A stretch of DNA of 32,275 nt, taken from assembly GCA_022772675.1 (NCBI GenBank), contig JALEZW010000056.1, positions 1 to 32,275 of the forward strand, written 5' to 3'. Under the pieces are notes generated by a model. It had not been told where the DNA came from, searched no databases, and saw only the letters and a program-made list of their open reading frames with translations. Position 1 is the first letter of the stretch, and every line of letters begins with the position of its first letter. This DNA comes from Agathobacter sp. Lineage in GTDB: Bacteria > Bacillota > Clostridia > Lachnospirales > Lachnospiraceae. Of this stretch, positions 22,279-31,267 are shown one piece after another. Both the position numbers and the translations under genes were made by a program.

Positions 22279-23859
22279 ATGGGAATTTATCTGAACCCGG
22301 GAAATGATAATTTTCAAATTGCATGTAATTCTGAAATTTACGTGGATAAAACAGGAATGATTAAGCATACCAATCGGATGATCTGTACGCAACAGCGGTT
22401 TATCTGCATCAGCCGTCCGAGAAGATTCGGAAAATCCATCGCGGCAAATATGCTGGCGGCTTATTACGGAAAGGACTGCGATTCCGCAGAATTGTTTGCA
22501 CCGTATCAAATTGCACAGGATGAAGATTTTCGCAAAAATTTAAATCGATATAATGTAATTATGCTGAATATTCAGGATTTTGTGAGTATAATACCCAAAG
22601 TTGATGAAATGCTTTTATTTTTGCAGAAACGAGTAATCAAAGAATTAAAACGGGCATACCCGGATATCGTTGATGCTGATGAAAGCTTTTTGAGTTTTGT
22701 TCTGGAGGATTTGTACAGTGAGACAAAAGAGACATTTGTTTTCATTATTGATGAGTGGGACTGTATTTTAAGGGACCGCCAGTATACTGCCGATGACCAG
22801 AAAAAATATCTGGATTTTATCCGGAATCTGCTGAAGGACAAGGCATACGTTGCCCTTGCCTATATGACCGGAATTCTGCCTATTAAAAAATATGGAACTC
22901 ACTCTGCATTGAATATGTTTGACGAGTATTCCATGACAAGACCCTTTGAATACGCACAGTTTATAGGTTTTACAGAGCCGGAGGTAAAGGCCCTTTGTGC
23001 AAAATATCAGGTGGATTTTGACACCATGAAAAGCTGGTATGACGGGTATACCTTTCCGGAAGTGGGACACATTTATAATCCCAAGTCTGTGGTGGACAGT
23101 ATCCGGAGAAAAAGCTTTGGAAGCTACTGGACTCAGACCGAGACCTATGAAGCACTAAAGATTTATATTGATTTAAACTATGACGGTCTGAAGGATGCAG
23201 TTGTACAGATGCTTGCGGGAGGCCGCGTGGGAATCAATCCGGAGCGGTTCCAGAATGATATGACCACTTTCAGCAGCAAAGATGACGTCTTAACCCTATT
23301 GGTGCATCTGGGTTATCTGGCCTTTGACAGTGAACATTCGGAAGTGTTCATTCCAAATGCGGAAATCCGCGGAGAATTCCGCAACGCAATTCAAGGGGAT
23401 CATTGGAAGGATATCGTTGCTGCACTGGAGCAGTCCCAGAAGCTGCTTGAGGCAACCTGGAATCAGGACGGAGAGACCGTGGCTGAGATTCTGGATGCCG
23501 TGCACAGCGAGAATACCTCAATACTCACTTACAACGATGAGAATTCTCTAAGCTGTGTGATCTCTCTGGCCTATTTCAACGCCATGAAGGAGTATACGAA
23601 GATCCGTGAATTCCCCAGTGGGAAAGGCTTTGCCGATATTGTATATCTTCCCAGGAAGCATTCCGATAAACCGGCATTGATCGTAGAATTAAAGTATGAT
23701 GCTTCTGCAGAAGGGGCGATTACGCAGATCAGAGAAAAGCGGTATGTGGAGAGCCTGAAGGAGTATCACGGGAATCTGCTTCTGGTAGGAATTAATTACG
23801 ATAAGGAAAGCAAGAAACATACCTGTGTGATTGAAAAGTGGGAGAATTTTTGCTGTTGA
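22279..23859 (+). CDS. AAA-ATPase with C-terminal PD-(D/E)XK nuclease-like domain
   Basis: A 526-residue member of the AAA-ATPase-like plus PD-(D/E)XK family, often amplified in gut Bacteroidetes and Firmicutes. It opens MGIYLNPG and YVDKTGMI; Walker A is RPRRFGKS (about residues 46-53), Walker B is FVFIIDEWD (about 155-163). A C-terminal nuclease-like core shows D in GFADIVYLP (about 452) and E-L-K in VELKYD (about 470-472). A helical bundle of about 150 residues lies between. The family's biological role is unknown; mobile-element or defence roles have been proposed. Fragments of the same gene family lie at 18184 and 26482, so it has been copied or recombined within this region. GGGGGA lies about 9 nt before the ATG. 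Confidence 0.88.
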   Translation: MGIYLNPGNDNFQIACNSEIYVDKTGMIKHTNRMICTQQRFICISRPRRFGKSIAANMLAAYYGKDCDSAELFAPYQIAQDEDFRKNLNRYNVIMLNIQDFVSIIPKVDEMLLFLQKRVIKELKRAYPDIVDADESFLSFVLEDLYSETKETFVFIIDEWDCILRDRQYTADDQKKYLDFIRNLLKDKAYVALAYMTGILPIKKYGTHSALNMFDEYSMTRPFEYAQFIGFTEPEVKALCAKYQVDFDTMKSWYDGYTFPEVGHIYNPKSVVDSIRRKSFGSYWTQTETYEALKIYIDLNYDGLKDAVVQMLAGGRVGINPERFQNDMTTFSSKDDVLTLLVHLGYLAFDSEHSEVFIPNAEIRGEFRNAIQGDHWKDIVAALEQSQKLLEATWNQDGETVAEILDAVHSENTSILTYNDENSLSCVISLAYFNAMKEYTKIREFPSGKGFADIVYLPRKHSDKPALIVELKYDASAEGAITQIREKRYVESLKEYHGNLLLVGINYDKESKKHTCVIEKWENFCC

Positions 23860-25547: not shown

Positions 25548-26471
25548 TTGAGAAAGAATAAAGGAATCATAATCACAGCCTTTTTTATACTGGCAGTAGT
25601 GGCTGTGGCAGAGGGAAGCCATCTGGTAAAGAATTATGTAAAAAATCAGAATCGAGAATCGAAGCTGCCGGAGGCTGCTACAGAATCTTCAGCAGAATCT
25701 TCATCAGGATCATTTACGAAATCAATTTCAGAACCAACCTCAGAGACGGCTGTGGAACCAGTTACAGAATTGGCTTCGAAGCCGGGTATGGAACCAGTTA
25801 CAGAATTGGCTTCGGAGCCGGTTACGGAACAAACAGCGGAACAGGATGCAGAAGCTGCTGCGGACCTATCGGAACTTTCTGAAATCTCTAATCACGATTT
25901 CTATATTTCCGAAATCCCGGACGAAATCTTTGAAAAAATGCAGGGCAAGTCTTTTAAGCAAGACTGTACGGTGCCACGGGAGGATCTTCGTTATCTTCAT
26001 GTGCTGCACAAGGGGTTTGACGGTCAGACAAAGGAAGGGGAGCTGGTGGTGAATAAAGCCATCGCCGATGATGTTCTTGCAATTTTCGAGGAATTGTATC
26101 AGGCAGATTATCCCATTGAGAAGGTGCGCCTGGTGGATGAATATGATGCAGACGACGAGGCTTCCATGAGAGATAACAATTCATCTGCTTTTAACTTTCG
26201 TTTCATTTCCCATACTACAAAGGTATCGAAGCATGGCCTGGGGATGGCAGTGGATATCAATCCCCTTTACAATCCATATGTGAAGGCTGTGAAGGGTGAA
26301 ACCTCCATTGAGCCTGCCGTTGCTGCTGCATATGTGGACAGAAGCGGGGATTTCCCATACAAAATCGATCATGACGATCTGTGCTACAAGCTTTTTACCA
26401 AATATGGGTTTACCTGGGGCGGCGACTGGGAACATTCCAAGGATTATCAGCATTTTGAGAGAGGGGAGTAG
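25548..26471 (+). CDS. Secreted or membrane-anchored M15-family peptidase
   Basis: A 307-residue protein. A TTG start is followed by an N-terminal signal anchor (IIITAFFILAVVAVAEG). Then comes a long Ser/Thr/Glu-rich linker (about residues 38-110) including a tandem 12-residue repeat (EPVTELASKPGM, EPVTELASEPVT; 36-nt period). The C-terminal domain (about 115-307) resembles peptidase M15 (D-Ala-D-Ala carboxypeptidase or L-Ala-D-Glu endopeptidase): KHGLGMAVDIN gives zinc ligands His near 229 and Asp near 236, and DWEHSKDYQHFE gives the final His near 302. It probably cuts cell-wall peptide cross-links outside the membrane. AAAGGAATG precedes the start. It runs directly into an AAA-ATPase gene fragment. 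Confidence 0.82.
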   Translation: MRKNKGIIITAFFILAVVAVAEGSHLVKNYVKNQNRESKLPEAATESSAESSSGSFTKSISEPTSETAVEPVTELASKPGMEPVTELASEPVTEQTAEQDAEAAADLSELSEISNHDFYISEIPDEIFEKMQGKSFKQDCTVPREDLRYLHVLHKGFDGQTKEGELVVNKAIADDVLAIFEELYQADYPIEKVRLVDEYDADDEASMRDNNSSAFNFRFISHTTKVSKHGLGMAVDINPLYNPYVKAVKGETSIEPAVAAAYVDRSGDFPYKIDHDDLCYKLFTKYGFTWGGDWEHSKDYQHFERGE

Positions 26472-26481
26472 CTGTCTGAAA

Positions 26482-26520
26482 TTTGACAGTGAACATTCGG
26501 AAGTGTTTATTTCAAAGGCA
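26482..26520 (+). pseudogene. Fragment of an AAA-ATPase gene (middle part)
   Basis: The 39 nt encode FDSEHSEVFISKA then stop and align with 23323-23361 of the intact gene (FDSEHSEVFIPNA), with about 4 differences. Only this scrap remains, 10 nt after the M15 peptidase stop. It shows recombination or deletion at this point. Confidence 0.75.
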
Positions 26521-26553
26521 TAAATTTGTGGGGGAATTCTGTGGTGTAATATT

Positions 26554-27020
26554 GTACGGGGGAATTTTATGTGTTTAAAATTCAGCCGTATTCTTTTTGT
26601 TTTGTACGTGTGAAATTACGAAATCTGGAAACCCATCCGTAAAATCCAGATGTCCTGTACGGGCGAAATCTCGAACTTCTCAAAACCACCTGTATAATAT
26701 TTATATTCTGTACGGGCGAAATTACGAAATCCGGAAACCACCCGTACAATATCTATATTCTGTACGGGCAAAATCTCAAATTCCTCAAAACCACCCGTAT
26801 ACTCCCAAGTCATGTACATGTGAAATTTCGAAAATGAAAAACCACCCGTATAAACCTTACGAACTGTACGGGTGAAATTTTAAAATTGCAAAACTACCCG
26901 TATAATCCTTGCACTTTGTACGGGTGAAATTACGAAAATCTAAAAATCGCCCGTATAATTCCTACGCCCCGCACGGGTGAAACCCTGAAATTCAAAAGTC
27001 ACTCATATGTGACCTTCCTG
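26554..27020. repeat. Nine-unit tandem array of hairpin repeats, 52-bp period
   Basis: Starts of the units marked by GTAC (or GCAC) lie at 26554, 26604, 26657, 26710, 26762, 26814, 26866, 26918 and 26971, spacing 50-53, mostly 52. Most units carry a left arm like TACGGGTG and a right arm like CACCCGTA about 25 nt later, separated by A/T-rich DNA, then a variable tail beginning TATAAT-like. Units differ by many substitutions. Ends decay into non-matching DNA. There are no unique spacers between identical repeats, so it is not a CRISPR array. An ORF running through it (26597-26875) reflects the repeat only. Confidence 0.88.
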
Positions 27021-27086: not shown

Positions 27087-27283
27087 GTAACTATTCAAAA
27101 CCCCTCCCCATGCATTTGCAAAAACGCACGACAAGTCGTGCTTTCTCGCTGTTTCGCAGCTAATTTTGCTCATACATGGGGAGGTGGCTCTATTCGAGCT
27201 ACCTTACGAATAAGATAAGTAGCTTCTTACATGCAAGCATGACGAATCTACTTATCTTATTCTAAGGGGTTCTGAATAGTTAC
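27087..27283. repeat. 197-bp structured element with inverted termini (MITE-like or ncRNA)
   Basis: Terminal arms of 19 nt (27087-27105, beginning GTAACTATTC; 27265-27283) are inverted repeats with one mismatch. Inside are a second pair CCTCCCCATG (27103-27112)/CATGGGGAGG (27175-27184), a GCACGACAAGTCGTGC palindrome near 27126, and a perfect 14-bp hairpin AATAAGATAAGTAG (27209-27222)/CTACTTATCTTATT (27248-27261). It has no coding capacity. Related scraps are at 94-114 and 1073-1107, so it is a dispersed element. Confidence 0.7.
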
Positions 27284-30721: not shown

Positions 30722-31267
30722 ATGGAAATACTTGATATAGTGGATGAGGAAGGAAAACCAACCGGCGAGACAGTGGACAGAGAGCAGGCGCACCGTGAGG
30801 GCGTACTGCACCGTACATCCCATGTGTGGATTGCCAGAAATAAAAACGGGCGGATACAGCTTCTGTTACAGAAACGTTCCATGCAGAAGGATTCTTTTCC
30901 GGGGTGTTACGACATTTCCAGTGCGGGACATATTCCGGCAGGAGATGATTATGTGCAGTCTGCACTTCGGGAATTGAAAGAAGAACTGGGAGTCACGGTA
31001 AAGGAAGAGGATCTCATTAACTGTGGGCAGGTTCAGAAACAGGTGGATACGGAATTTGGGGGTGTGCCTTACCATGATCGCCAGATTTCCTGTGTTTTTC
31101 TGCTCTGGCTGGATCAGGAGGAAGAGGAATTTAACCTGCAGGAGGAAGAGGTAGACAGTGTGCGCTGGATGGATTATGCCCAGTGCCGTGGTATGGTGGC
31201 AGCAGATACCCTTCCAAACTGTATTATCATGGAAGAACTGAATATGCTGGAGGGACATTTTGCATGA
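30722..31267 (+). CDS. NUDIX hydrolase
   Basis: 181 residues. The Nudix box is GHIPAGDDYVQSALRELKEELG (about residues 67-88), which matches G-x5-E-x7-R-E-x2-E-E-x-G except that Asp replaces the first Glu. The start MEILDIVDEEGKPTGETVDREQAHREGVLHR is characteristic of the isopentenyl-diphosphate isomerase-like NUDIX group found in many Firmicutes; the substrate is unknown and it hydrolyses some nucleoside-diphosphate-linked compound. AAGGAGG lies 7 nt before the ATG. It overlaps tatD by 4 nt (ATGA), so the two are translated together. Confidence 0.92.
   Translation: MEILDIVDEEGKPTGETVDREQAHREGVLHRTSHVWIARNKNGRIQLLLQKRSMQKDSFPGCYDISSAGHIPAGDDYVQSALRELKEELGVTVKEEDLINCGQVQKQVDTEFGGVPYHDRQISCVFLLWLDQEEEEFNLQEEEVDSVRWMDYAQCRGMVAADTLPNCIIMEELNMLEGHFA

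Follow-up and report, generated by a model that had tools for sequence, protein, structure and literature searches.

The array at 26555 to 27007 of the window (the whole stretch of 32,275 nucleotides that we analyzed, which is contig C64 of the 2.8-Mb, 73-contig genome G000) is probably a dispersed, gene-less copy of an array of half-sites found immediately upstream of a nuclease-like gene in the same genome; we give this reading a probability of about 0.6. Arrays of this kind are linked to nuclease-like genes, their arms diverge along with the proteins, their steps are near whole turns of the helix, and arrays with matching arms are dispersed in the genomes. As there is an array at the nuclease-like gene, and relatives of the gene have arrays of their own, these observations point to a previously unrecognized protein-and-repeat partnership. 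Both the gene and the dispersed family of arrays go beyond what an earlier note on this DNA had seen.

The array in the window

The earlier note described nine units with a period of mostly 52 bp, and mapping the units bears this out. They start at 26555, 26605, 26658, 26711, 26763, 26815, 26867, 26919, and 26972 (steps of 50, 53, 53, 52, 52, 52, 52, and 53 bp), and each spans 36 or 37 bp. In window coordinates, with no strand assigned, the features are:

26555 to 27007: whole array, nine inverted-half-site units with a step of 50-53 bp; probable orphan (gene-less) copy
26555 to 26590: unit 1, TACGGGGG ... CAGCCGTA, 36 bp; complementary arms longer than in units 2-9
26605 to 26641: unit 2, TACGTGTG ... 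CATCCGTA, 37 bp
26658 to 26694: unit 3, TACGGGCG ... CACCTGTA, 37 bp
26711 to 26746: unit 4, TACGGGCG ... CACCCGTA, 36 bp
26763 to 26799: unit 5, TACGGGCA ... CACCCGTA, 37 bp
26815 to 26850: unit 6, TACATGTG ... CACCCGTA, 36 bp; degenerate left arm
26867 to 26902: unit 7, TACGGGTG ... TACCCGTA, 36 bp
26919 to 26955: unit 8, TACGGGTG ... CGCCCGTA, 37 bp
26972 to 27007: unit 9, CACGGGTG ... CACTCATA, 36 bp; both arms degenerate

The left hexamer is exactly TACGGG in six of the nine units and the right hexamer is exactly CCCGTA in five; the remainder have one or two mismatches. Tandem Repeats Finder also calls the array. A detector that chains a single 8-mer in strictly alternating orientation gave a chain of 8 here, and at most 4 in 200 shuffles (4 was reached in 1 of 200) or in 110 other slices of the window (4 was reached in 1 of 110).

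Related arrays in Lachnospiraceae

Used as a query, the window array finds similar arrays elsewhere in its own genome. The pattern TACGGGN{22,34}CCCGTA has 26 matches there (one of which, on C10, is not unit-like) versus 2 for the reversed control, and the other 25 make up eight TACGGGYG/CRCCCGTA arrays, on C7, C40, C42, C63, C64 (the window), and C72 (three arrays). Their inner sequences differ; the arms, the span of 36-37 bp, and the step of 52-53 bp recur. The window and C42 arrays also match in the flank next to the units, so duplication of an array can take neighboring DNA along.

Among 98 relatives, a stricter TACGGG pattern was found only in G000 (16) and G018 (58), and its reversed control only in G020 (2). 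A two-unit pattern, run over the genomes of named species, found 32 stretches. Of these, 31 lie in six assemblies of Lachnospiraceae, namely Butyrivibrio sp. INlla21, Pseudobutyrivibrio ruminis CF1b, and four metagenome-assembled genomes, and one lies in a Streptomyces. Counts for TACGGGN{24,25}CCCGTA, with the control in parentheses, were 25 (0) in G000, 58 (2) in G018, 13 (0) in G098 (CALWMW), 47 (2) in G100 (CAMKQH), 35 (2) in G101 (JAFZNO), 10 (0) in Butyrivibrio (G102), 15 (0) in P. ruminis (G103), and 10 (1) in Streptomyces (G104). We take the Streptomyces matches (L042) to be due to chance, as they are single units in GC-rich DNA without an AT-rich center. No two-unit TACGGG array was found in viral contigs.

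Dispersed arrays show no promoter bias, as their flanks resemble background gaps: in the 23 of 37 arrays for which both flanks were seen, the flanking genes were codirectional in 13 cases, convergent in 6, and divergent in 4 (background: 110, 36, and 41). The other 14 arrays had one flank only, and many arrays in G100, G101, and G018 are at contig ends, so arrays probably break short-read assemblies and are undercounted. In Butyrivibrio INlla21 (L046, 4609-4813), a 68-bp tandem repeat in three copies adjoins both GCACCGCC and TACGGG arrays.

Anatomy and conservation of the units

We parsed 32 arrays with 168 units. The unit span is 37 bp in 129 of the 168 and 36 bp in 34. The arm positions of TACGGG and CCCGTA are 93-99% invariant (array-weighted, 30 arrays), which is partly by construction because the unit search tolerated no more than two mismatches. 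The A/T-rich triplets at positions 10-12, 18-20, and 26-28, which are symmetric about position 19 and allow G/C between them, are not by construction of the unit search. Otherwise, the inside of the unit varies between arrays. Many arrays have a strong bias to A or to T on one strand all through the inside, so the inside does not self-pair. The earlier note's term "hairpin" covers the arms only. The TATAAT-like box that was noticed after right arms is present in several units of the window but is not a feature of the family: across 30 arrays, CCCGTA is most often followed by C, and conservation of the spacer is low.

In one orthologous pair of arrays (L038 and L037), each has six units at a step of exactly 53 bp, and the main flank match is 87% identical. 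All 24 arm hexamers are exact and 21 of 150 inner positions differ, but the search that gave these loci used an exact two-unit pattern, and this biases toward exact arms. Another orthologous pair has 8 versus 6 units. The earlier note had proposed that free drift of both unit number and spacing among relatives would indicate a neutral minisatellite; unit number does drift (8 vs. 6 in one pair, 6 vs. 6 in the other), but spacing stays at 49-53 bp.

Half-sites are spaced by nearly whole turns of the helix

Units in P. ruminis have the same arms, and their half-sites are exact, but the inner sequences are unrelated and the units are not copies of one another. Their steps of 52, 62, 73, 83, and 94 bp are whole helical turns. 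Successive exact half-sites mostly alternate in orientation at 30-32 bp; other distances are 21, 41, 52, and 63 bp, so that the distances correspond to 2, 3, 4, 5, and 6 turns, and there are two longer gaps of 93 and 125 bp. Over 33 same-orientation steps, which are not independent, R was 0.94 at a period of 10.3-10.4 bp.

The same phasing is seen across many arm types. In 43 gene-linked arrays, the median step was 51-54 bp (24 arrays), 60-65 bp (7), 71-74 bp (10), or 80-81 bp (2), and no median fell between these four groups (R = 0.73 at 10.4 bp; the resolution of the period here is no better than about 10-10.6 bp). When the five-turn group was left out, R was 0.66 (n = 19, p about 2.5e-4). 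Whole-turn steps between units with unrelated inner sequences argue for a DNA site that is bound on a single face, rather than for a minisatellite or an RNA. The earlier note's suggestion of a phased, conserved array of the protein-binding type thus holds, given that arrays with differing insides have their arms, span, A/T positions, and step in common.

Linkage to a family of nuclease-like genes

When we compared the genes beside TACGGG arrays across genomes, the only recurring candidate for a partner was a nuclease-like gene; the other recurrences were only syntenic pairs and common large families. In the window's genome, this gene (G000:C72:79877-80680, minus strand) has an array just upstream (80771-81231). 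TACGGG arrays also adjoin copies of the gene in P. ruminis, G098, and G101, and a truncated copy in G100.

The linked protein has about 270 amino acids and no Pfam or NCBIfam family. Its C-terminal part looks like a PD-(D/E)XK nuclease: in eight proteins scanned, the PADLOC model PDC-S68 matches all eight in the C-terminal nuclease domain (E = 1e-25 to 7e-31) and HEAT_CxxC_PDDEXK matches seven (best E = 6e-8). The motifs RSKSE, YE, PDF, and EH are invariant in 25 copies, with H where the classic motif has K. Judging from sequence, the linked proteins appear to have both the catalytic-type residues and the profile matches of the PD-(D/E)XK superfamily. A Pfam scan of the eight proteins at E ≤ 1 listed no transposase family. 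A near-full-length structural model (pLDDT 70, pTM 0.42) matched prefoldin, V-ATPase, and ESCRT-III, which we disbelieve as matches between long helices; the N-terminal part may nonetheless have a known fold.

The range of the gene looks narrow. With a cutoff of E ≤ 1e-10, 29 of the 60 genomes from the genus have relatives, as do 2 of the 38 remaining genomes in the order sample. At E ≤ 1e-25, relatives appear in 2 of the 148 additional genomes in the phylum sample, in one case for the nuclease domain only. A single linked-protein query had no match in viral contigs; the protein profile matched eight loci there, all of them encoding long proteins (open frames of 747-1191 amino acids, at loci truncated on one side). 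No array stood out in the downstream flanks of these eight loci, which were the only flanks viewable. Eight plasmid records had partial profile matches (the annotated ones are ATPases or helicases), and among phages one unannotated 4.2-kb record matched. There are up to 11 matches per genome (in G100), with 9 in P. ruminis. Decaying copies, with stop codons or in fragments, are found beside intact ones in G028, G055, G059, G013, G017, G044, and G053.

We examined 70 places with the gene, some of them fragments (30 loci, 24 further ones after six repeats were dropped, and 16 that were fetched in addition). Within 700 bp, 36 of the 70 copies had an alternating chain of at least 5 half-sites; 207 shuffles never gave more than 3. 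The chain is upstream in 32 of these 36 copies and downstream in 7. In a different genus of the family, four of seven additional copies had such a chain, so that in total 40 of 77 copies have a chain of at least 5 and 37 do not. As background we used 191 upstream regions of open reading frames, from stretches that were mostly picked for TACGGG arrays. These gave 16 chains of at least 5 (13 of TACGGG and 3 of GCACCGCC), of which two belong to genes of the family; the other 175 regions had at most 4.

Arms differ among gene copies

The arms at gene copies include TACGGGCG, TACGGTTA, TATGTCCC, TACCGCCC, GCACCGCT, CAGGCAAG (25 in a row), TACTACCT, and TACGTGAG. The CGGGTCTG array of G035 is genuine; with a strict chain of no more than 4, it is not counted among the 36. 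Across 34 copies, the similarity of the arms tracks the identity of the proteins (Mantel r = 0.29, 0 of 2000 permutations): arms are shared in 4 of the 8 pairs above 60% protein identity and in about 2% of the 525 pairs below 50%. The protein tree agrees with the arm types, except that TACGGG arms appear in two distant clades.

For four arm types (TACGGG, TATGTCCC, CGGGTCTG, and TACCGCC), we found both a gene-linked array and scattered gene-less arrays. TATGTCCC, which is gene-linked in G000, G018, and G027, has 8, 5, and 18 units in those genomes, 1 unit in G006, and none in the remaining 56 of 60 genomes (Fisher's exact test, 1.2e-4; the reversed control has 1 each in G011 and G015). CGGGTCTG has 12 units in the one-contig genome G035, at its single gene copy and at six other places, and none in five other genomes. 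TACCGCC, which is linked in G100 and G101, has 35 and 10 units there, 3 in G102 (one inside a GCACCGCC array), 1 in G098, and none in five others (control: 1 in G000). In Butyrivibrio, GCACCGCC is linked to a gene copy (L115) and has gene-less arrays on two further contigs, one of which directly adjoins a TACGGG array. TACTGTT in G055 is not dispersed: it forms an array at the gene alone, and the further matches are two single ones and 1 in G000 (control: 1 in each of two genomes).

Two genomes have TACGGG arrays and no TACGGG-linked gene in their assemblies. G018, whose assembly is 80% complete, has 58 TACGGG units; its contig that is syntenic to the gene region of G000 breaks off at an array a short way ahead of where the gene would be expected (L039 vs. 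L070), which may be why the gene is missing. We had predicted that a truncated copy in G018 (on C54) would carry TACGGG arms, and this was wrong: its arms are CATGGGCG. In the draft genome of Butyrivibrio INlla21, none of the four matches to the gene is TACGGG-linked.

What the arrays might be

We propose that the protein binds the half-sites, probably via its N-terminal part, and that an oligomer of it would line up along the array on a single side of the helix. A dimer site for the C-terminal PD-(D/E)XK-like domain could consist of two half-sites in inverted orientation, about 37 bp from each other and with AT-rich DNA at the center. Most speculatively, arrays might be cut or nicked and then repaired by the host, which would lead to their expansion, homogenization, and occasional appearance in new places. 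The gene-linked array and the scattered arrays would then act much as a RAYT gene does with its REPINs. A broader proposal, which we hold tentatively, is that this is a new class of selfish or domesticated DNA, in which a two-domain nuclease reads alternating half-sites at whole turns and spreads or maintains the arrays, and in which paralogs arising by duplication have private recognition sequences that co-evolve with them.

Two other accounts have little room left. A string of structured RNA hairpins, as the earlier note had offered, would explain why, on both strands, the window array folds better than its shuffles (100 per strand; z = −5.8 and −5.1), but an inverted repeat would fold so in any case. 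At the variable arm position, the 168 units have T-A 58 times, C-G 32, T-G 31, C-A 25, and other combinations 22. The association of T-A and C-G is weak (odds ratio about 2.4), and because C-A, a mismatch, is frequent (25 of the 146 pyrimidine-purine pairs), recognition of each half-site in DNA is favored over an RNA stem. Also, the arm hexamers are nearly invariant, the steps track DNA turns, and Rfam has no match to the window array at gathering score (lax thresholds gave weak, unrelated matches only), so we consider RNA hairpins very improbable. Still less credible is a neutral minisatellite. Units are alike within most arrays and their number varies, as expected of a minisatellite, but it is already contradicted by the anatomy (arms, span, A/T positions, and step in common among arrays with different insides), by the P. 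ruminis units, which are not copies of each other, and by the helical phasing.

The arrays could instead serve chromosome architecture, as immobile sites where a domesticated DNA-binding protein bends or bridges DNA, with a nuclease fold that is structural or rarely used. The whole-turn spacing, the many arrays per genome, and the exact arms in the orthologous pair whose flanks are about 87% identical fit this account, and conserved catalytic-looking residues are no proof of activity. It seems unlikely nonetheless, because the system is patchy (within the genus, 29 of the 60 genomes have the gene; TACGGG arrays occur in 2 of 98 relatives) and because a core role sits oddly with broken copies of the gene and with paralogs whose arms are private to them. 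We find it somewhat more doubtful that the protein is an autoregulatory or defense nuclease, with the linked array as operator and sink and with dispersed arrays that add to the sink or mark self DNA. The mostly upstream position of the array (32 of 36 copies with a chain) and the relation of the nuclease domain to PADLOC's candidate-defense models PDC-S68 and PDC-S69 would be explained; the numerous dispersed arrays, without promoter bias (13/6/4 against a background of 110/36/41), and the downstream chain in 7 copies would not.

Comparison with known systems

Among known systems, the best reading is that the arrays and the gene would work most like REPIN-RAYT, with an unrelated enzyme and unrelated DNA. 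In REPIN-RAYT systems, REPs flank the RAYT gene and pairs of REPs are scattered (PMC3116915), and the REP palindrome is defined with a GTAG or CGTC tag (PMC3733652). Both systems have a gene flanked by the repeat it presumably acts on, gene-less inverted pairs scattered between genes, and several types of gene and repeat per genome. In contrast, the protein here is PD-(D/E)XK-like rather than related to the IS200/IS605 (Y1/HUH) transposases, and the repeats are long arrays of alternating half-sites at whole turns with unconserved insides rather than GTAG- or CGTC-tagged palindromes. The consensus TACGGGYG...CRCCCGTA has neither tag; the arm type at L138 happens to contain GTAG.

Another of the closest systems is Tn7, whose TnsA is a PD-(D/E)XK transposase subunit. 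The candidate defense proteins PDC-S68 and PDC-S69 of PADLOC have the C-terminal nuclease domain in common with our family. This type of domain also ends long helicase-like proteins in viral contigs and plasmids; unlike the long proteins of viral contigs, the present family has about 270 amino acids and its own N-terminal part. The plasmid centromere sopC of F is a protein-loading array of tandem inverted-repeat units of some tens of bp. Our arrays resemble sopC-type centromeres in having tandem units, each with an inverted repeat, but differ in the many arrays per genome and in the nuclease-like linked protein. Given the many arrays per genome, the centromere-like site suggested earlier is not supported. 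A CRISPR array is a poor match, in agreement with the earlier note: within an array, units are diverged rather than near-identical, yet they resemble each other throughout, with no unrelated spacers.

Neither the array nor the protein is named in Pfam, NCBIfam, or Rfam. A literature search, which covered subscription papers and preprints only in part, surfaced nothing on either, and we do not claim that they are absent from print. If the proposal is correct, Lachnospiraceae have a nuclease-based counterpart of REPIN-RAYT, with dozens of natural pairs of protein and half-site whose specificities diverge in step. A code of protein-DNA recognition, as well as the multiplication and maintenance of repeats in bacterial genomes, would then be directly testable, and intergenic arrays that these databases do not name would have an origin.

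Surroundings of the window array

The array is downstream of a gene for an M15-type peptidase (25548-26471). Directly before the array, a 44-bp remnant (26482-26525) still reads FDSEHSEVFI and is 89% identical to 23323-23366, within an AAA-ATPase-like/PDDEXK_9 gene (22279-23859). In G018, there is no array between the M15 peptidase gene and the next gene, which resembles the window's open reading frame 30722-31267; because the window has about 4 kb more than G018 there, this gives no clean boundary of an empty site.

Just past the array, 27098-27272 (minus strand) has strong inverted repeats and a sub-threshold match to the Clostridiales-1 RNA (RF01699, 31.6 bits against a gathering score of 48). 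The outer ends are similar (gtaactattca ... tgaatagttac), and it is possibly a small repeat element. A T-box leader RNA lies at 2336-2574 of the window (minus strand), above the Rfam gathering score. Finally, an intergenic sequence that begins with GATACAAGGGTCAA (then A or C) AGGTCAGA is common to L066 (8400-8490) and L072 (16640-16730). It is beside an array in G000 and at an array-free place in G018, and it looks like another dispersed element.
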